NCBI GenBank assembly: GCA_016869375.1
Contig: VGEH01000041.1
Location: 1 to 33,206 of the forward strand
Length of the DNA: 33,206 bases
Direction of reading: 5' to 3'
DNA from: Alphaproteobacteria bacterium
GTDB lineage: Bacteria > Pseudomonadota > Alphaproteobacteria > SHVZ01
Shown here in pieces: positions 10,465 through 28,077 of this stretch (positions within the stretch are counted from its first letter, which is position 1; each line of letters starts with the position of its first letter). A model generated the notes under the pieces. The model saw nothing but the letters and a program-made list of their open reading frames with translations. It was not told where the DNA came from and ran no database searches. The position numbers were made by a program, and so were the translations under genes.

Positions 10465-13121
10465 CGCGTCGGTGGAAGCAGGCCCTTCAGCCGATACAGC
10501 ACTTCCAGCGCTTCCTTCGGCGACAGCTCGTCCGGGTTGACCGTGGTCAGCTCGGTCTCGACCGCCGACTCCTCCTTGCGGAGCTTGCCGGATTGCGGGC
10601 GCGCAGCGGCGAAGAGGGGGAGGTCGTCGGCGAGCTTGGCAGCCGAGCCGGCGCGCTCGCCGGTTTCGAGCGCGCGCAGCACCTCCTCGGCACGGTCGAG
10701 GACACCCGACGGCAAGCCGGCGAGCCGTGCGACATGCAGACCGTAGGAACGGTCGGCGGCACCGACCGCGACCTCGTGCAGGAAGACGACGTCACCCTGC
10801 CACTCCTTGACCCGCATGGTGCGGCAGGCGAGCGCGGCAAGCCGCGAGGCGAGCGCGGTCAGCTCGTGGTAGTGCGTGGCGAAGAGCGCGCGGCAGCGAT
10901 TGACCTCGTGCAGATGCTCGAGCGTCGCCCAGGCGATCGAAAGCCCGTCGAAGGTGGCGGTGCCGCGACCGATCTCGTCCAGGATCACAAGCGAGCGGGC
11001 CGTCGCCTGGTTCAGGATCGCCGCGGTCTCCACCATCTCGACCATGAAGGTCGAACGGCCACGGGCGAGGTCATCGGCGGCGCCGACGCGGCTGAAGAGA
11101 CGGTCGACCGTGCCGAGATGCGCCGATTCCGCCGGCACGAAGGCGCCGATCTGGGCCAGCAGCACGATCAGCGCATTCTGCCTGAGGAAGGTCGACTTGC
11201 CCGCCATGTTCGGGCCGGTCAGCAGCCAGAGGCGCTGGCTGTCGGCGAGATCGCAATCATTGGGAACGAAGGGATCGCCGCTCGAGGCGAGCGCCGCCTC
11301 GACGACGGGATGCCGCCCGGCCTTGATCGCGAACTGGTTCGATCCGTCGACGACGGGCCGCACGTGCCGGCGTTCGGCCGCAAGCTCGGCCAGGGCCGAT
11401 GACACGTCGAGCCGTGCCAGCGCATCGGCGGCGAGCGCGATTGCCTCGGCGCGGGCGCCGACCTCGCCGACCAGATCCTCGAACAGGCGAAGCTCGACGG
11501 CGAGCGCCTTGTCGGCGGCGGAGGAGAGCTTGGATTCCAGCTCGCCGAGCTCGACTGTGGTGAAGCGCGCCGCATTCGCCATGGTCTGGCGATGGATGAA
11601 GCCCGGCTTGCCGAGGATCTTCTCGGTATGGGTCGCCGTCGCCTCGATGTAGTAGCCGAGCACGTTGTTGTGCCGGATCTTGAGCGAGGCGATGCCGGTC
11701 TCGGCCTGGTACCTTGTCTGCAGCCCGGCGATCAGCTTCCGGCTCTCGTCGCGCAGAGACCGCAGCTCGTCGAGATCCGGCGCATAGCCTTGCGCAACGA
11801 AGCCGCCGTCGCGGGCGAAGAGCGGCAGTTCCGGCGCCAGCGCGCGGTCGAAGCGCTCGATCAGCACCTGGTGATGCCCGAGATCGCGCGATGCCAGGCG
11901 GATGTCCTCGGCGAGGTCGGAAGCGCGCCCGAGCCGTGTCGTCACCTCGGCCGCTGCGGCGAGGCCGTCGCGGATGGCGGCGAGGTCGCGCGGGCCGCCG
12001 CGGCCGAGCGTGATCCGGGAAAGCGCGCGGGCGAGGTCGGGGCTGCGCTTGAGCAGCCCGCGGAGATCACTTCGCAGCGCTTCGTCGGCGACGAAGCTGG
12101 CAACGGCGTCCAGCCTCCGGTCGATCTGGGCCGCATCCGTCAGCGGCGCGGCGAGACGCTCGGCCAGGAGACGGGCGCCGGCGCCGGTGACGGTGCGGTC
12201 GATGACGTCGAGCAGGCTTCCCTGGCGCTCGCCCGAGAGCGTGCGGGTGAGCTCCAGGTTGCGGCGCGTCGCCGGGTCGATCTCCAGCACGCCGCCGTCG
12301 CTCTGCCGTCGCGGCGGGGTCAGGCGCGGCAGCTTTCCCTTCTGGGTCAGCTCGACATAGTCGACGACGGCGCCGAGCGCGGCGAGCTCTGCCCGCTCGA
12401 AGCTGCCGAAGGCATCCAGCGTGCCGACGCCATAGAGGGCCTCCAGCCGCTTCCGGCCATTGGTCGAATCGAAGCGGGCATCGGGCAGCGGCACCAGCAC
12501 CTGCTTCCAGTCGCGCAGCAGCTCGAACAGCTCCGGCTGCTGGACCAGCCGGTCCGGCAACAGCAGTTCGGACGGGTCGAGGCGGGCCAGCGCCGAGGCG
12601 AGACTCCTCGCATCGACCGGCCGCGCGCCGACCTCTCCGGTCGAGACCTCGACCCAGGCGAGCGCGAGGCTCCCTTGCGCGTCGGCGAGGGCAGCCAGGA
12701 AATTCGACCGCCGCGCATCCAGCAGCGTGTCTTCGGTCAGGGTGCCCGGAGTGATGATCCGGACGACCTCGCGGCGGACCACGGATTTGGAGCCGCGCTT
12801 CTTCGCCTCGGCAGGGTCTTCCATCTGCTCGCAGATGGCGACGCGGAAGCCCTTCCGGATCAGCCGCGGCAGGTAGACCTCGGCAGCATGGACCGGCACG
12901 CCGCACATCGGGATGTCCTGGCCCTCGTGCCGGCCGCGCTTGGTCAGCGCGATGTCGAGCGCGGCCGAGGCCTTGACCGCGTCCTCGAAGAACAGCTCGT
13001 AAAAGTCGCCCATCCGGTAGAACAGCACGGCGTCCGGATGAGACGCCTTGATCTCCAGATACTGGGCCATGCCCGGCGACAAATCGGCCGGCGGCGCGGG
13101 CGGGCTCTGGTCCATGGGCAT
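10461..13121 (-). CDS. mutS: DNA mismatch repair protein MutS
   Basis: ATPase that recognises base mismatches and starts methyl-independent or MutL-dependent repair. The 886-aa length fits the MutS1 family. The mismatch-binding Phe-x-Glu is at F40-Y-E42 within [14 protein letters not shown]. The Walker A motif [13 protein letters not shown] is at about residue 635, followed by the signature [12 protein letters not shown] and Walker [16 protein letters not shown]. The C-terminal helix-turn-helix and dimerisation tail are present. The start at ATG 13121 precedes a proline-rich leader; ATG 13115 is an alternative. It heads a three-gene minus-strand run with the glycosyltransferase and the Nramp-like gene. 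Confidence 0.97.
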
Positions 13122-13171
13122 GGGCCGAGGTTTAGCGGAAACGCGCGAAGAGTCACAGCGCTCGAAAGGGC

Positions 13172-13212
13172 CCCTCCCTAGACCTCCCCCTGCTCCGCAG
13201 GGTGAAGGGTCT
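13172..13212. repeat. Single related arm of the GC-rich palindromic repeat
   Basis: The stretch CCTCCCCCTGCTCCGCAGGG with flanking CCCCTCCCTAGA and TGAAGGGTCTC resembles one arm of the palindrome at 4420-4516: the same CCTCCCCC, then xGCTCCGC, then G-rich order. It is degenerate on its 3' side and lies in the 185-bp gap between the divergent genes mutS and the antiporter. No second inverted arm is found next to it. Confidence 0.5.
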
Positions 13213-13306
13213 CGGAATCGTGAGGTGAGCGCCCGCTCAGCTCAATAATCCGCCTGCGACGGATCGCGAGTTTGCGGAAGGGCGAACCCGTGTCATAGCT
13301 GCATCG

Positions 13307-15088
13307 ATGGCTAGTCTCGGGCTTCTCAACTTCGTGCTGCTGTTCGGCTCGGTGCTGGTTCTCGCCGGCATCCTGTCGAGCCTTGTCGCCAAGCGCTTCG
13401 GCGCCCCTTTGCTGCTCGTCTTCATCGTCATCGGCATGCTGGCCGGCGAGGACGGGCCGGGCGGGATCAAGTTCGACGACTACGCCACCACCTATCTCGT
13501 CGGGTCGCTGGCGCTCGCGATCATCCTGTTCGACGGCGGGCTGCGCACCAAACTGGTCACCGTCCGCGGTGCGTTGACGCCCTCGGTGGTGCTGGCGACG
13601 GCGGGCGTCGTCGTCACGGCGACCTTGACCGGCGCCTTCGCGCTGCTGGTCCTCGACCTGACGCTCGTCGAGAGCCTTCTGCTGGGGTCGATCGTCGCCT
13701 CCACCGATGCAGCGGCGGTCTTTTTCCTGCTGCGCTCCGGCGGGCTCGAGCTTCGCCAGCGCGTGACCTCCACGATCGAGGTCGAATCGAGCACCAACGA
13801 TCCGGTCGCCGTCTTCCTTACGTTCCTCCTTGTCGAGATCCTGACGATCGGCAAGGGCGAGGCCGATATCCGCGTCTTCGCCGAGCTCGCGCGCGCCTTC
13901 CTGATCGGCGGCTTGGTCGGCTATCTCGGCGGCCGCGCCATTGTCTGGATGACCAACCGCGCTGATCTGCCGCACGGCCTTCATCCGATCTTCGTCGTGG
14001 TGAGCGCGGTCGCGATCTTCTCCGTCACCTCGGTGATCCACGGCTCCGGCTTCCTTGCCGTCTACCTCGCGGGACTCGTCGTCGGCAACCGGCCGGTGCG
14101 CGCCTTCGCCAGCGTGCTGTCCTTCCACGACGGAGCGACGTGGCTCTGCCAGATCATGATGTTCATGGTGCTGGGCCTGCTGGTGACGCCACACCAGTTG
14201 ATTAACTACGCCGTGCCCGGCATCGCCATCGCCGCCTTCCTGATGCTGGTCGGCCGTCCGGTAGCAGCCGCGGTCTGCCTTAGCCCTTTCGGCTATTCGA
14301 AGCGCGAGATTCTCTTCGTCGGGTGGGTCGGGCTTCGCGGCGCCGTCAGCATCTTCCTTGCCTCGATCCCGGTTCTGGCCGGGGTGTCGAACGCTGGCCT
14401 CTTCTTCAATGTCGGCTTCTTCGTCGTCCTCATCTCGTTGGTCGTCCAGGGCTGGACGATCAAGCCGGCGGCGCTCTGGCTTCGCCTGGCGCTGCCGCGC
14501 ACGACGCCGGAATCCAAGCGCATCGAGATCGACCTGCCCGGCCAGTTGAAGCAGGAGCTGGTCGGATATCCGGTGCAGGCGGACTCCGCGGTCCTGGCCC
14601 AGGGCCGCGTGCCGGACTGGGCGAAGCCGGTGCTGGTGATCCGCGAGGGCCAGATCCTGGAACCGGCCGAGGCCGGACGCCTGGTCGAGGAGGACTACGC
14701 CTACTTCCTCGTGCCGCTCCGGAAGGTGCAGCGCCTCGACCAGCTGTTCACGCCTTCGACCGAGGCCGAGCGCGACCGCGAGGCGGGCGAGTTCCTGCTC
14801 GAGGGCGCGGCTCAGCTCGGCCAAGTCTGCGCCCTTTACGGCATCCCGTTGCCAGAGGGCGAGCGGGCGGACGAGACCATCGCCGAATACTTCTCCAACC
14901 GCTTCGAGGATCACCCGCAGATCGGCGATCATCTGCCCTTCGGCCCCGCAAGCCTGGTCGCGCGGCGCACCGAGAACGGCAAGGTGACGCTGGCGGGCTT
15001 CCTCGTCGACGAGGACGAAGAGCCGCAGCGGCCGTCGCTCTTCCGGCTTTGGTCGACGCTGGTTCGGCGTAAGCTCCGCTCCAAATAG
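13307..15088 (+). CDS. K+/H+ antiporter (CvrA/NhaP2 type, CPA1 family)
   Basis: Inner-membrane cation/proton antiporter for potassium extrusion and cytoplasmic pH or osmotic control. The 593-aa length matches NhaP2/CvrA. The first about 390 residues form 12 or so hydrophobic helices with the CPA hallmarks SIVASTDAAAVFFLLRSGG and EVESSTNDPVAVFL; the Asn-Asp pair is the expected ion-binding site. The C-terminal cytosolic part carries a TrkA-C-like segment (PVLVIREGQILEPAEAG...YFLVPL) and a final transporter-associated (CorC_HlyC-like) domain, the arrangement seen in NhaP2. ATG 13307 follows the repeat-bearing gap, without a strong ribosome binding site. The GFA gene begins 11 bp after its stop and is probably cotranscribed. 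Confidence 0.93.
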   Translation: MASLGLLNFVLLFGSVLVLAGILSSLVAKRFGAPLLLVFIVIGMLAGEDGPGGIKFDDYATTYLVGSLALAIILFDGGLRTKLVTVRGALTPSVVLATAGVVVTATLTGAFALLVLDLTLVESLLLGSIVASTDAAAVFFLLRSGGLELRQRVTSTIEVESSTNDPVAVFLTFLLVEILTIGKGEADIRVFAELARAFLIGGLVGYLGGRAIVWMTNRADLPHGLHPIFVVVSAVAIFSVTSVIHGSGFLAVYLAGLVVGNRPVRAFASVLSFHDGATWLCQIMMFMVLGLLVTPHQLINYAVPGIAIAAFLMLVGRPVAAAVCLSPFGYSKREILFVGWVGLRGAVSIFLASIPVLAGVSNAGLFFNVGFFVVLISLVVQGWTIKPAALWLRLALPRTTPESKRIEIDLPGQLKQELVGYPVQADSAVLAQGRVPDWAKPVLVIREGQILEPAEAGRLVEEDYAYFLVPLRKVQRLDQLFTPSTEAERDREAGEFLLEGAAQLGQVCALYGIPLPEGERADETIAEYFSNRFEDHPQIGDHLPFGPASLVARRTENGKVTLAGFLVDEDEEPQRPSLFRLWSTLVRRKLRSK

Positions 15089-22657: not shown

Positions 22658-24319
22658 CTATTTGAGGCCGGCCAGCCGCAGATTCTCTCTGGTCTCGTTC
22701 ACCCAGGCGGTGTCGGCATTCGGAAGCCTGGCCGCCCACTCGTCGACGGAGAACAGCGGATCGAGACGCATGACTTCCGCCGCGGTCGCGCGAGCGGCCT
22801 CGAGATTGCCGAGAAGGCATTGGACGCTCGCGAGACCGACGAGCGAACGCACGAAGCCGGCGTTGCGCTTGAGAACCTCGCCGAACGCGTTCTGCGCTTC
22901 CTCGAGGCGGCGAGACTGCCAGTATGCCCAGGCGAGATTGTGCCGCAGCCAAAGAGGCGCGTAGGGATTCATGCGGACCGCGCGCTCGTAGCAGAGCGTC
23001 GCCTCGTCCAATCGGTCGGCATAGGCATAGACTTGCCCGAGCATCGCCATCAGCTCGGAATCGCCGCGCGACAGCGCGATGGCCTGCTTCATCGCGGCGA
23101 TCGCCTCGTCGTATCGGCGATCGAGGACGAGGATATAGGCGCCGAGACCGTGCGTGTCGGGGTAGGTCGGTCCGAGCAGAAGAGCGCGGCGGTGAAGAGC
23201 CTGCAGGATCGGCATGGTCCGTGCCGGATCGGTGTTCCAGCCGTGACGGATGTCGTCCATCAGGCAATAGCCGAGCGTCACGGTTGCCGCGAGATAGCTG
23301 GGATCGTAGGCGAGCGCCGTGCGATACAGGCGCTCGGCCTCGCGATGGCCGGTGCGCGTGATCTCGCGCGCCTTCTCGCGGCCTCGCTGGTATTGCTGCC
23401 ACGCGCGCGTGTCGCTCGTGCCGCTGTTCCAAAGGCGCGCCCTTTCGCCTTCGGTCAGGCTGACCTGCAGCGCCGTTGTGACTTCGCGCGCGATGACGTC
23501 GGGCATGCGCGATACGAGGTCGAGATCGGTATCGCTGCGATCGCTCCAGACGATGCGACCGGTCGCGCTTTCGACTAGCTGAATGCTGAGCCGCAGGCGG
23601 CCGTCTCCGGTCACGCCCGAGCCGGTCAGCCGATAGTGGTGCGGACTCGAAGACCGAACCTGGTCGCCGTTCCTGTCGGCGAGATCTCCCCGTATCAGGA
23701 GGATGCCCGAGATCGAGGAGAGCATCGAGGTCAGCTCCTCGGCGACGAGATCGCAGGCCTTGCGTGCGGTCCTGCCGCCACTGATCACGCGGAATCTCTG
23801 GATCTCGACCGATGGACGCTCATAGTTCTGGAGCGCCTCGGCGGCGGGTGCAGCCTGGCCCGAAGGTGGCCTCTTGGGCTCTAGGCTGTAAGCGCGTATC
23901 CGGCCGGTGATGTTCTTCAGGCGATGCTCGCCGGCGAAGACGAAGTCGGCATCGACCCGGTCGCGAACCAGATCGTGCACGGCACCCGACACGAGGATCT
24001 TCCCTGGCTCGGCCAGGGCCTGCAGGCGAGCCGCGATGTTCACGCCGTCGCCGTGGATGTCTCCGTCGACGTCGTAAACGTCGCCGAGATTGACCGCGAT
24101 GCGATAGGTGAGCCTCGTCGATGCCGGCTCGCCGGCGGAGGCCTGGACGGCCTGGATTCTCAGGGCGGCGGTCACGGCATGCGTGCTGCTCGGAAGCTCG
24201 GCGAGGAAAGAGTCCCCCTGGGTGCCGACGACGCGCCCGCCGAGCTCGGCGATGATGCTCGTCATCTTGCTGCGGCTCTCGATCAGGGCCGCGATCGTCT
24301 CGCGCTCACGCCCGCTCAC
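22658..24319 (-). CDS. Class III adenylate cyclase-TPR protein, main fragment after a frameshift
   Basis: The fragment opens at GTG 24319 and gives 553 aa. It has most of a class III cyclase domain (GGRVVGTQGDSFLAEL with the second metal Asp; YRIAVNLGDV; GDIHGDGVNIAARLQALAEPG with the transition-state Asn and Arg). A central TolB/FlgO-like domain (RKACDLVAEELTSMLSS ... RLSIQLVESATGRIVWSDR) follows, then at least four TPR repeats to the C-terminus. The usual N-terminus with the first metal-binding Asp lies in another frame just upstream (24306-24398), separated by a 10-bp tandem duplication. Removing one repeat unit gives one 576-aa protein that aligns with the family without gaps. As it stands, the translated part lacks an essential Asp and should not make cAMP. 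Confidence 0.85.
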   Translation of the reverse strand: MSGRERETIAALIESRSKMTSIIAELGGRVVGTQGDSFLAELPSSTHAVTAALRIQAVQASAGEPASTRLTYRIAVNLGDVYDVDGDIHGDGVNIAARLQALAEPGKILVSGAVHDLVRDRVDADFVFAGEHRLKNITGRIRAYSLEPKRPPSGQAAPAAEALQNYERPSVEIQRFRVISGGRTARKACDLVAEELTSMLSSISGILLIRGDLADRNGDQVRSSSPHHYRLTGSGVTGDGRLRLSIQLVESATGRIVWSDRSDTDLDLVSRMPDVIAREVTTALQVSLTEGERARLWNSGTSDTRAWQQYQRGREKAREITRTGHREAERLYRTALAYDPSYLAATVTLGYCLMDDIRHGWNTDPARTMPILQALHRRALLLGPTYPDTHGLGAYILVLDRRYDEAIAAMKQAIALSRGDSELMAMLGQVYAYADRLDEATLCYERAVRMNPYAPLWLRHNLAWAYWQSRRLEEAQNAFGEVLKRNAGFVRSLVGLASVQCLLGNLEAARATAAEVMRLDPLFSVDEWAARLPNADTAWVNETRENLRLAGLK

Positions 24320-24398
24320 GCCCGCTCATGCCCCTGCTGTAGCCGACGGCATCGGCCATCAGAATGGCGGTCAATCGGCCATGGCCGGCAGCCGTCAC
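24306..24398 (-). pseudogene. Detached N-terminus of the adenylate cyclase (out of frame)
   Basis: From GTG 24398, preceded by a G-rich ribosome binding site (GGGGGG, about five bases away), the frame reads ...RLTAILMADAVGYSRGMSGRERA and stops at TGA 24306-24308. LTAILMADAVGYSR is the classic opening of class III cyclases; Asp16 would be the first metal ligand. The stop is created by the duplicated 10-bp unit at 24309-24328. Confidence 0.75.
24309..24328 (-). repeat. 10-bp tandem duplication causing a frameshift
   Basis: On the minus strand TGAGCGGGCG occurs twice in perfect tandem (24328-24319 and 24318-24309), and a third partial copy TGAGCG follows. Ten bases is not a multiple of three, so the extra unit shifts the cyclase reading frame. 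Tandem units of this kind can be gained or lost by replication slippage. Confidence 0.85.
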
Positions 24399-24409
24399 AA
24401 TGCCCCCCA

Positions 24410-24445
24410 CCGGACGGAACGGTCCCCCCGAACGATCCCGTCCGG
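24410..24445. other. Hairpin-forming inverted repeat upstream of the cyclase start
   Basis: CCGGACGG (24410-24417) and CCGTCCGG (24438-24445) are perfect 8-bp inverted arms 20 bases apart. They lie in the 175-bp gap between the precursor-like gene and the cyclase start. With no T-run it is not a clear terminator; an operator or attenuating hairpin is possible. Nothing else is recognised in this gap. Confidence 0.3.
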
Positions 24446-24573: not shown

Positions 24574-24945
24574 TCAGCAGGACGCGCAGGAGCGGATCAG
24601 ATGGTGCGCGAGCATTAACAGATCCTTCTCGCGCAGCTCCTCCGGTGGAGGAATGATGAGGTAGAACTTCCCTTCAGGCTGGACGAAGACTTCCACCTCG
24701 ATTTCGGCTCCCTCATCGAGAAGCTTGGCGTCGATGAAGCCTTGGGTCGGGTTCTTCTTGAACCTCTCGAGTTCTTCGGGGCTTGCCCAAAGCCTCACCA
24801 GCAGATCTCGCATCTTGTAGGCATAGTCCGGCGGACCCTGATCCGTCCTGGTGACCCAGCGATGGAAGTATCGCTTCTTTTTCCCTGATCCCGCCTTCTT
24901 GCCGGTACGCCTTGCCGGCGCATTCTTCCCCCGCGCATTAACCAT
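24574..24945 (-). CDS. Candidate RiPP precursor with nitrile-hydratase-leader-like (NHLP) domain
   Basis: The 123-aa protein has three parts. Residues 1-30 are very rich in Lys and Arg. Residues about 42-112 resemble an NHLP leader: YKMRDLLVRLWASPEELERF, then KKNPTQGF, then an acidic beta segment (EIEVEVFVQ) and KFYLIIPPPEELREKDLLML. The last ten residues are HHLIRSCASC, a short tail with two Cys and two Ser. No Gly-Gly cleavage site is visible. ATG 24945 is chosen because AGGGGAG lies seven bases upstream; TTG 24984 would extend the protein by 13 residues but is at the predicted transcription start. The gene diverges from the YcaO gene, which fits a precursor role. An alternative is a nitrile-hydratase-alpha-like relic or a stand-alone small protein. 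Confidence 0.65.
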   Translation of the reverse strand: MVNARGKNAPARRTGKKAGSGKKKRYFHRWVTRTDQGPPDYAYKMRDLLVRLWASPEELERFKKNPTQGFIDAKLLDEGAEIEVEVFVQPEGKFYLIIPPPEELREKDLLMLAHHLIRSCASC

Positions 24946-24992
24946 TTCGGCGCTCCCCTTTTTGGTAGATGGAATTTCGGACAACGTTAGCG

Positions 24993-25020
24993 AGAATAGC
25001 AGGGACGGGTGCCTGGTCTA
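24993..25020 (-). promoter_or_regulatory. Possible promoter of the precursor-like gene
   Basis: On the minus strand TAGACC (25020-25015) and TATTCT (24998-24993) are 16 bp apart, each matching the sigma-70 consensus at four of six positions. Transcription would begin near 24986, about 41 bases before ATG 24945. Adjacent dyads (ATCCCC/GGGGAT at 25020-25037 and ACCTGT/ACAGGT at 25052-25083) lie between this promoter and the YcaO start and may be operators. Confidence 0.35.
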
Positions 25021-25097
25021 TCCCCAGGTTGGGGGATGGCGATCATAAGAGACCTGTCTAAGTGTGTGCGGTTGGCAACAGGTAGGTACGGCGCGAG

Positions 25098-26495
25098 ATG
25101 CTGGAACGGGCGAGCCATGGGTCGGTGGCGGCGCTGATCGACGCCCAAAGAAGCAGACAAGCGATCCTCAGTATGTTCGGTGACGGAGAGGAGCGAGCAG
25201 CCGCCGCCGCGATCTTGACCGACCTTGAGCAGATCGGCTTCGTTGAAACTCGTAGGGGGAAGATCAGATGGGTCGGTGTCGAGCCTTTCGAAGTGCTGCG
25301 CCGACTGATCGCGCTTCGCGACGGCCCAGGCAGGTCGCTGATCAGCCTACCGAAGGACGATGACTGCCCGATCACCGTCTATGCCGTCCCCGACAGTGCC
25401 GAAGGTCTGCCGCCACATCTGAAGGCCTGGGGCGGTGCGGCCGGGACCGGCTTCGGGCGCCGGGCGGCGGCGGCCTCGTGTCTTTTCGAGGTGGCGGAGC
25501 GCTGCTCTCAGATGAGAGCAGATGATGAGCCAGTCGCCAGCGCGTCGTTCTCCCAGCTCGGCGAGAGCGCAATTCATCCGGAGAGGCTTCTCCTGGAAGG
25601 AGCCAATCACTCGGGGTTGGATCCGAAAGCGGCAATTTCGTGGATTGCAGCGCGGCAAGTTTGCACGGGCGAGAAGCGTTGGCTCCCGGCCGACTATTGC
25701 TTCCGGGCAGCCAGGCGAGAGCCGTCGGCCTGGACCTGCTCGGCGAACAGCAACGGCTGCGCCAGCGGGTTGTCGCAGGACGATGTTATCGTTCGTGGCT
25801 TCTTTGAGTTGGTTGAGCGCGATGCCGTGGCGATCTGGTGGTTCAATCGCCTGCGGCGGCCGAGCTGCTCGCCGGAGATTGTCGAAAGCGATGCCATCCG
25901 CACCGTCACGGCTTGGCAACATCGTCGTGGCCGTCGCTGTCATCTCCTCGACCTGACCGCAGACCTGGGTGTTCCGGTGGTCGCCGCGGTCTCGTGCAAC
26001 GTCGATGGCCGCGGCATCGCGGTCGGCTTTGGCGCCCATCTTGACGGCCATGCGGCGGCGGTCAGGGCCAGCATGGAAATGATGCAGTTCCAGGCCATGA
26101 TCGAGCTCAGTCTCCGCTTCCGTGGCCTCGTGCAGGGTCAACCTTCAGCATCTACCGCGGCGGCCCTCGACTGGTTCGAGAACGTGTCGATCAACGACGA
26201 CGGGTACCTCCTTCCTGACGCTGAGGCCCAGACAGTGCCGACGCGAGCGCATTCGACACCGGCCACGCCCGAGCATTGCCTGGCGCTGGCCGCCGATCAT
26301 GACCTCGATGTGCTCTATCTCGACCTGTCGAGGGACTGGATAGGGATTCCAGCGGGCCGCGTCGTGGTTCCGGGTTTGCGCTCGCTCGAGCCACACTTCG
26401 GTGAGGGACGTCTCTTCGACGTGCCGGTGGCGCTTGGGTGGGCGCGGGTACCGAGAAGCGTTGCGGAGATGAACCCAAGGCGCATCGTCTTCTGA
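25098..26495 (+). CDS. YcaO-domain protein, TOMM-type cyclodehydratase with fused winged-helix-like N-terminus
   Basis: YcaO enzymes use ATP to activate backbone amides, turning Cys/Ser/Thr in a precursor peptide into azolines. The 465-aa protein has a YcaO core from about residue 112: GAAGTGFGRRAAAASCLFEV, the nucleotide-binding SNGCASG at 218-224 with ELVERDA (Glu237, Glu240, Arg241), and Glu327/Gln330 in ASMEMMQFQ. These are the sites expected in peptide-modifying YcaOs. Residues about 1-58 look like a small winged helix (GSVAALIDAQRS ... ILTDLEQIGFVETRRG), possibly a leader-binding element. No ThiF-like domain is present, and the usual Pro-rich C-terminus is reduced to MNPRRIVF. The peroxidase gene follows after 25 bp. 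Codon use is less G/C-biased than in the core genes. Confidence 0.85.
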   Translation: MLERASHGSVAALIDAQRSRQAILSMFGDGEERAAAAAILTDLEQIGFVETRRGKIRWVGVEPFEVLRRLIALRDGPGRSLISLPKDDDCPITVYAVPDSAEGLPPHLKAWGGAAGTGFGRRAAAASCLFEVAERCSQMRADDEPVASASFSQLGESAIHPERLLLEGANHSGLDPKAAISWIAARQVCTGEKRWLPADYCFRAARREPSAWTCSANSNGCASGLSQDDVIVRGFFELVERDAVAIWWFNRLRRPSCSPEIVESDAIRTVTAWQHRRGRRCHLLDLTADLGVPVVAAVSCNVDGRGIAVGFGAHLDGHAAAVRASMEMMQFQAMIELSLRFRGLVQGQPSASTAAALDWFENVSINDDGYLLPDAEAQTVPTRAHSTPATPEHCLALAADHDLDVLYLDLSRDWIGIPAGRVVVPGLRSLEPHFGEGRLFDVPVALGWARVPRSVAEMNPRRIVF

Positions 26496-26520
26496 TAGAG
26501 CTACCAGGGGGAGGGGAGAA

Positions 26521-28077
26521 ATGGCCAGTGAGGGAGCATCCGGCAGGACCGAGCTGAAGACTGGTGAGCAGCAGACGCTTATGCGTGTGATGTCCGCGAG
26601 CCTGGGCGAACGGCCTGATGGACCTGAGTTCATCCAAGCGGGCGATGAGAAGACGATTCCGGCCGGATACACTTATCTCGGTCAGTTCATCACGCACGAC
26701 ATCTTGCCTAGTACAAGGCCTCCACCTGGCGGCGGGCCGGCGGCGACGCGCGCCTTCGATCTCGACTCGGTCTATGGGCGCGAGAAGCCGAGAGATCTGC
26801 CTTCGCTCTACGGACTCGGAAAAGATCCGGCGAAGCCCTGGCGCCTGAGACTGTCCCGTGCCATTGGCGGCAGCGATGCGAGCGTGCGCGACCTCATTCG
26901 CGGGGAGGATGAAGTTGCGTCGATTGCCGAGCCCAGAAACGACGAGAACATCATCGTTGCTCAGCTCCACTCAGCCTTCTGCGCGTTTCACAACAAGATC
27001 CTGGACGACATTGAAAAGACGCACGGCTCTCAGGCGACCGAGGAAGCCTTGGTCGAGGCGCAACGCCTCGTTCGCTGGCACTATCAGTGGATTGTCCTTT
27101 GGGACTATCTGCCGAGAATATGCGGTGGAACGGCGGATCTGATCGCGCTCGTAGGCAAGCCGGGCGAGGGGCCACCGTCGAATCCACCATTCAAGTATGT
27201 TGGGACCAGTGGACTGCCGAGCTCCTTGATTCTCGACATTTTCTCCAAGGCGGTTTTTCGTTTCGGCCACGCCATGTCGCGCGCGACATATTTCCTCAAC
27301 GATACTCTAAAGGGGCCGGAAGGCACCCTTAAGGATGCAGCTAGGCCTCCTCTCTGCCACATTCCAATTCCGATCTTCGAGCGCGACAAGCAGCCGAGGG
27401 CCCAAGTGGATCTCCGAGGTCGCCGGGGTATCACCGGAGATTGGGCAATCAAGTGGGCTTACTTTTTCGCCTTTGCCGATGCACCGCTCAAACCATGGGG
27501 GGCCGGCGCGGAGGAATGCGACGGCGCTCCTGCCGTCCCGTTCAACGGCCCTCAGGCAAGCATGCCTTTGACATCCCGACTGCTCTATGCGTTCCGGGGG
27601 CTCCCGGAGCAACGCGACGGCGGCGCGGACTCGCTGATATGGCGCGACGTTATCGCCGGCCAAGGATTGCCGACGGCGCAAGCGCTAGCTAGGGGCGCGA
27701 TAGAGGCCGGAGCGGAGATGTCCATCCTCGAACCCGGTGAGCTTCAGAGTACGAGTGATGTGCAGTTACCTGCCCACCTTCTGAACAACACCCCCCTCCT
27801 GTACTACATCCTGAGAGAGGCGGAGCTGAAAGCAGGCACCAAGCATCTCGGGCCTCTCGGTCGCATGATCGTGGCCGAGACCATGATTTCGTTGCTCTTA
27901 GATGACTCAGAATCCTACCTCAGGAAGGAGCCGATCTGGACTCCGCGCGACGGAATTGCCGGTGCGCGGGTCGGTGAGCCCTACACCATGGCCCACCTCC
28001 TGAAGTACGCCTACTACGAGGGGAAGAAGCCGAGACCTGCGGAACCTTGGCCCGCCGGTGCGCCGAAGATTCGCTAG
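26521..28077 (+). CDS. Animal-type haem peroxidase (cytosolic)
   Basis: The 518-aa protein belongs to the animal haem peroxidase (peroxidase-cyclooxygenase) superfamily. The distal His is His59 in YLGQFITHD, with Asp60 at the usual calcium site. DLDSVYG (80-86) follows, Arg139 in EPRNDENIIVAQLHSAF is the catalytic Arg of the R-x-x-E-N motif, and His250 in FRFGHAMSRA is the proximal haem ligand. All key residues are kept, so it should be active. No signal peptide or membrane segment is seen, whereas many homologues are exported. A strong ribosome binding site (GGGGGAGGGGAG) precedes ATG 26521. It is cotranscribed with the YcaO gene, which suggests an oxidative tailoring role. Its stop overlaps the convergent rpoN stop. 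Confidence 0.88.
   Translation: MASEGASGRTELKTGEQQTLMRVMSASLGERPDGPEFIQAGDEKTIPAGYTYLGQFITHDILPSTRPPPGGGPAATRAFDLDSVYGREKPRDLPSLYGLGKDPAKPWRLRLSRAIGGSDASVRDLIRGEDEVASIAEPRNDENIIVAQLHSAFCAFHNKILDDIEKTHGSQATEEALVEAQRLVRWHYQWIVLWDYLPRICGGTADLIALVGKPGEGPPSNPPFKYVGTSGLPSSLILDIFSKAVFRFGHAMSRATYFLNDTLKGPEGTLKDAARPPLCHIPIPIFERDKQPRAQVDLRGRRGITGDWAIKWAYFFAFADAPLKPWGAGAEECDGAPAVPFNGPQASMPLTSRLLYAFRGLPEQRDGGADSLIWRDVIAGQGLPTAQALARGAIEAGAEMSILEPGELQSTSDVQLPAHLLNNTPLLYYILREAELKAGTKHLGPLGRMIVAETMISLLLDDSESYLRKEPIWTPRDGIAGARVGEPYTMAHLLKYAYYEGKKPRPAEPWPAGAPKIR

Follow-up and report, generated by a model that had tools for sequence, protein, structure and literature searches.

A block of four genes, encoding a cyclase-TPR protein, a small protein, a YcaO protein and a haem peroxidase of the Pfam family PF03098, was found to belong together as a system in the window, that is, in the whole 33,206-nucleotide stretch of alphaproteobacterial DNA that was analysed (contig VGEH01000041.1). 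Judged from sequence, the gene set is probably an undescribed route to a modified peptide. The reading that we favour, with a probability of about 0.55, is a compact peptide-modification system in which an NHLP-like carrier would be modified by the YcaO enzyme at a Cys of its C-terminus, the product then being oxidised by a peroxidase with a retuned haem site.

Organization and genomic site of the four-gene block

The cyclase-TPR gene (22658..24319) and the gene of the 123-aa small protein (24574..24945), the proposed precursor or carrier, lie on the minus strand, and are followed on the plus strand by the YcaO gene (25098..26495, 465 aa) and the peroxidase gene (26521..28077, 518 aa), the latter starting 25 bp past the YcaO stop codon. 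The trio pointed out in a preliminary description of this DNA, namely a small protein ending in SCASC, a YcaO and a PF03098 peroxidase 25 bp behind it, was indeed present as located. The G+C content is 60–64% across the block versus 65–69% in its surroundings, and a promoter/terminator scan gave no signal above chance. No second YcaO or PF03098 peroxidase was found in the source genome, which is about 90% complete. Neither a transporter nor a protease was found within the four genes; the conserved block also holds no SagB-type flavin dehydrogenase, an enzyme that many but not all TOMM clusters carry, the PF03098 peroxidase standing in its place, and no E1-like TOMM C protein, either separate or fused, as no ThiF domain was detected in YcaO or in the other block genes.

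Among six relatives, YcaO and the small protein were found in two of the same genus (G006 and G005), and in both of them cyclase, small protein, YcaO and peroxidase occur in identical order and orientation next to rpoN. Identities to the window in these two relatives are 75 and 70% for the cyclase (same position in loci L006 and L007), 40 and 28% for the small protein, 66 and 52% for YcaO, 46 and 42% for the peroxidase, and 85 and 86% for rpoN. The four-gene block is absent from the rpoN-ptsN region of G002 and G003 of the same genus and of G001 of the same family, while between rpoN and the contig end in G004 lie only an SDR gene and part of a different cyclase. Present in two relatives and missing from the rpoN site in three others, the block is therefore an accessory island whose insertion site is constant. 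A profile search of genome contigs with the window YcaO family retrieved, apart from a distant YcaO of Chitinophaga, just the relatives G006 and G005. The conserved linkage proposed earlier as a check was thus observed for the trio, in fixed order, in two genus relatives, and a related sister form was found elsewhere (see below).

The small protein and the YcaO enzyme

The small protein reads on the minus strand from an ATG at 24945 to a stop codon at 24574–24576 and has the C-terminus HLIRSCASC, whose last five residues (SCASC, 24577..24591, minus strand) form the proposed modification site and contain the sole cysteines of the protein, at positions −4 and −1. In all three genomes the tail reads HLIR-x-C-x-x-C, with the remainder of the protein just 28–40% identical; a GG cleavage motif and a hypervariable core are both absent. 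The protein had been described as NHLP-like, and this designation held in part. With hmmscan no match was obtained in Pfam or NCBIfam, the TIGR03793 (NHLP) model included, for which the protein does not exceed the cut-off and a canonical NHLP representative scores 6.7e-20 in the same library; the sister-form small proteins likewise gave no Pfam or NCBIfam match above chance. In profile-profile comparison (hhalign), the window family was aligned with a set of NHLPs from TOMM clusters, one of them from Chitinophaga and the rest from other Alphaproteobacteria, over 77 columns with Prob 93.5, E 2e-7 and score 44, the terminal Cys of the window being placed on the NHLP CCC core. Since this score is far above the best of 200 column shuffles (22), a relationship of the small protein to the NHLP leader region is supported at the level of sequence profiles. 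Fold comparison points weakly in the same direction: the best PDB match of the AlphaFold2 model (mean pLDDT 56, core 70–80) was 8tb1, a proteusin (RiPP) precursor solved by NMR (prob 0.92, E 0.12), and nitrile hydratase alpha ranked 30th.

The YcaO protein (PF02624, E 4.4e-65) resembles the SagD/LynD type of D protein, without a ThiF domain, and its nucleotide-binding residues are intact, as noted in the preliminary description, with the ATP-site motifs ExxER, ExxERD and ExxQ all recognizable. When the family profile was compared with solved structures, the top matches were LynD, TruD and MusD. Against the TOMM model TIGR03604 the protein scores 164 bits, below the cut-off of 219, and against TIGR03266 (McrA thioamidation) 107.8 bits, far below the cut-off of 365. 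Its N-terminal region of about 70 residues aligned weakly to the leader-binding domain found in fused TOMM enzymes, over the helical half of that domain (hhalign score 28.5, best of 200 shuffles 22.8), and shows a helix-helix-helix-strand-strand arrangement in a low-confidence model (mean pLDDT 42 for the whole YcaO, which was left out of fold searches). A possible RRE-like, leader-binding winged-helix remnant was accordingly assigned to 25113..25271 (plus strand), and the YcaO may therefore be a shortened C-D fusion.

The haem peroxidase and the sister form in other Alphaproteobacteria

The window peroxidase, of the peroxidase-cyclooxygenase superfamily, matches PF03098 with 39.6 bits (gathering cut-off 25), and the aligned family has lactoperoxidase as its best solved relative. 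By alignment it retains the distal His59, the distal Arg139 (26935..26937) and the proximal His250 (27268..27270), while both residues expected at two further positions are absent: Thr58 (26692..26697 together with His59) stands in the place of the haem-ester Asp, and Asp376 (27646..27648) in that of the Asn partner of the proximal His, all on the plus strand. Position 376 aligns to the Asn of the LNIQRG motif in lactoperoxidase 8s6c, which by our count corresponds to Asn421, the residue that partners the proximal His in myeloperoxidase. Neither the ester-forming Asp of the xGQxxDHDx pattern (PMC4420034) nor an Asn partnering the proximal His is a feature of families 4 and 7 of the superfamily.

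To describe this signature, an alignment of 71 bacterial peroxidases was used, in which 28 YcaO-system members were compared with 42 controls unlinked to YcaO; the count excludes the peroxidase of L195, whose gene is divided between two frames, and two placements were made by hand before it, L140 (with a decayed YcaO) going to the system group and the second L125 peroxidase, outside the block, to the controls. The first haem-ester Asp of the xGQxxDHDx pattern was present in 39 of the 42 controls and in none of the 28 system peroxidases (Fisher 1.6e-16, a value too strong given shared ancestry). Two more differences, found by a column search after the first had been noticed and hence a discovery within one alignment, concern position 376, with Asp in 26/28 system peroxidases (Ser in L147, Thr in L150) versus Asn in all 42 controls, and position 427, with Trp in 42/42 controls and not seen among the system rows. 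The catalytic His and Arg and the proximal His are kept in the YcaO-linked peroxidases. In haem peroxidases, loss of haem esters and a proximal Asp would be expected to lower the potential and to make oxidation of halides less likely. In the best peroxidase tree the sister peroxidases form one clade with the window form apart; since a single clade for all YcaO-linked peroxidases was not rejected (AU p 0.25), the signature may have arisen once. On the YcaO tree too, a single and a multiple origin of the YcaO-peroxidase pair were not separated by the data (AU p 0.52).

The sister form, retrieved by searching the class and the phylum with a peroxidase profile and scanning the neighbourhoods, is widespread in Alphaproteobacteria. 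A YcaO gene was found in 7 of 49 peroxidase-anchored neighbourhoods, with about 0.2 expected by chance according to our estimate. The usual layout is peroxidase, small protein, a convergent BTAD-TPR regulator and YcaO; L147 is intermediate, with a regulator joining cyclase, BTAD and TPR and with the YcaO nearest to the window form outside the genus. The sister small-protein profile matched in 25/397 genomes in the order of G578. In further loci retrieved solely through a match to the small protein (n = 21), a YcaO was present within 10 kb in 21/21, the regulator in 20/21 and an adjacent peroxidase in 17/21; the profile had been built from system loci, linkage in the new loci was not a selection criterion, and the sister loci are partly related, hence not all independent observations. 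Cys is the second residue from the end in all sister small proteins, except in L150, where it is the third, within tails of the type R-x-x-(D/E)-Y with Cys, in which an Asp/Glu-Tyr pair, mostly DY, is conserved beside the Cys.

The peroxidase is lacking in four sister loci of a single genus (L182, L184, L186 and L187, genus g534), in which the other three genes are retained; where inspected, an antiporter gene flanks the small-protein gene, with no peroxidase gene between the two. The peroxidase is therefore at times dispensable there, or encoded elsewhere. No sister-form small protein was found on plasmids.

Single loci depart from the usual layout in other ways. The Bradyrhizobium-like L140 (family f171, 12640–13418) keeps peroxidase, small protein and regulator, with YcaO just a remnant. 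In L183 (8923–9842) two small-protein genes lie in tandem, an arrangement frequent for precursor genes in RiPP clusters, and in L198 (11663–12988) a Rieske-type oxygenase-like gene, possibly for an extra tailoring step, is found between peroxidase and YcaO. Two copies of the sister system (L188 and L199) occur at separate places in genome G942.

Proposed mechanism, alternatives and known systems

From the gene content we infer the reactions, their order, the role of the regulator and the product. The substrate would be the 123-aa NHLP-like protein, with a folded leader or carrier part and the short SCASC tail. YcaO, with ATP, would act on a C-terminal Cys, the likeliest product being a thiazoline. 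In YcaO pathways known so far, flavin dehydrogenases are held responsible for oxidising azolines; here the haem peroxidase would instead oxidise the YcaO product or a neighbouring thiol. The peroxidase-cyclooxygenase superfamily is known chiefly for halide and aromatic oxidation, and the retuned haem site, with the first ester Asp lost and an Asp at the position of the proximal-His partner, would suggest specific oxidation of a peptide rather than of halides. The cyclase-TPR protein, or the BTAD-TPR regulator in the sister form, would control the gene set. As the tail is conserved and the block carries no exporter or protease, a conserved internal molecule or modified protein appears more likely as the product than a diversifying antibiotic. 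We put forward only tentatively the more specific proposal that, in a pathway conserved among Alphaproteobacteria, YcaO and the unusual peroxidase turn the C-terminal Cys into a cofactor, a signal or a redox group that is itself conserved; this might be the first case of a haem peroxidase acting in a YcaO/RiPP pathway. Several observations count against the favoured reading, namely the four sister loci devoid of a peroxidase, the missing TOMM C protein, the weak RRE sign, the lack of a GG motif, exporter or protease in the block, and the small protein without an HMM match.

The peroxidase might have a different target, YcaO still modifying the C-terminal Cys, and act on Tyr or another residue, act on a released product, or protect from peroxide. 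The Asp/Glu-Tyr conserved beside Cys in the sister tails and the loci without a peroxidase would fit such a role, as would the oxidation of aromatics and halides for which the superfamily is known (PMC4420034). However, the window tail has no Tyr, Cys therefore being the residue common to both forms, and both changes at the haem site, the missing ester Asp and the replacement of Asn by Asp, follow linkage to YcaO, so that we regard this possibility as unlikely, although worth keeping in view. Slightly less credit is given to the small protein being a partner, scaffold or sensor, with YcaO acting on another target: a C-terminus that is conserved and not hypervariable, together with the absence of cleavage and export genes, speaks for it, while the NHLP profile match that puts Cys on the NHLP core, the tandem copies in L183 and the Cys tail conserved in every locus speak for a precursor.

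With respect to the chemistry, thioamide-forming members exist in the YcaO superfamily and the McrA thioamidation model does match, far below its cut-off, so that a thioamide or another amide activation might be formed instead of an azoline. This seems improbable, as the TOMM model scores higher, although also below its cut-off, the best solved relatives LynD, TruD and MusD form azolines, and the TfuA partner is absent from the block. Adjacency by chance, for which it may be said that only three window-type loci are known, has a negligible probability: it was rejected on the linkage counts, both those of YcaO and peroxidase in the loci found through the small protein and that of YcaO in the peroxidase-anchored neighbourhoods. 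A role in anti-phage defence was also rejected, PADLOC matches being limited to weak TPR ones in the sister regulator.

The set is best placed as a variant within the TOMM/NHLP RiPP systems, new by the open-access literature. It shares with NHLP-type TOMM clusters (TIGR03793 precursors, fused C-D cyclodehydratase; PMC2887384, PMC4603692) an NHLP-like precursor with C-terminal Cys and a YcaO of SagD/LynD type, but differs from them in the lack of a C protein and a flavin dehydrogenase, in the haem peroxidase found instead, in a tail that is conserved and has no GG motif, and in having no dedicated exporter. A YcaO also acts without a C protein in TOMMs with a stand-alone D protein, such as bottromycin and trifolitoxin, but with another precursor type and no haem peroxidase described (PMC4603692). 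Bacterial PF03098 members share the above-cut-off Pfam match, the distal His and Arg and the proximal His, whereas the window peroxidase lacks the haem-ester Asp, has Asp for the proximal-partner Asn and is linked to YcaO (PMC4420034). Two traits set the block apart from the usual RiPP antibiotic loci: its C-terminal "core" shows conservation and not hypervariability, and transporter, protease and TOMM C protein are missing. In agreement with the preliminary description, which knew of no pathway with this exact set, no combination of YcaO, haem peroxidase and RiPP was found in the open-access literature, a search that leaves subscription journals mostly outside, so that an earlier description is possible; peroxidases go unmentioned in a survey of TOMMs from 2015. 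As YcaO and peroxidase recur together and the active-site signature is shared, a new RiPP oxidation can be tested directly; many bacteria may make a conserved product, as the conservation of the cysteine tail suggests, and Cys tails and peroxidase signature offer simple handles to find further systems.

The cyclase-TPR protein, with Pfam Guanylate_cyc and TPR domains, is a probable sensor or regulator. It resembles the peptide-modification cyclases TIGR04510 and TIGR03903 (NCBIfam), whose cyclase domain is tied to putative modified-peptide systems, with weak matches of 37.8 and 22.9 bits (cut-offs 400 and 706). Its N-terminal part lies just upstream in another frame, owing to a 10-bp direct repeat at 24290–24420 (minus strand) in which the unit GAGCGGGCGT is present twice; in L006 and L007 the frame is open throughout, and the break may reflect an error of assembly, a gene that is no longer functional or a switch of phase variation. 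On a plasmid of Rhizobium sp. CB3171 (L064, 1376–7272), a heme peroxidase gene lies beside a large adenylate/guanylate cyclase gene, with no YcaO.
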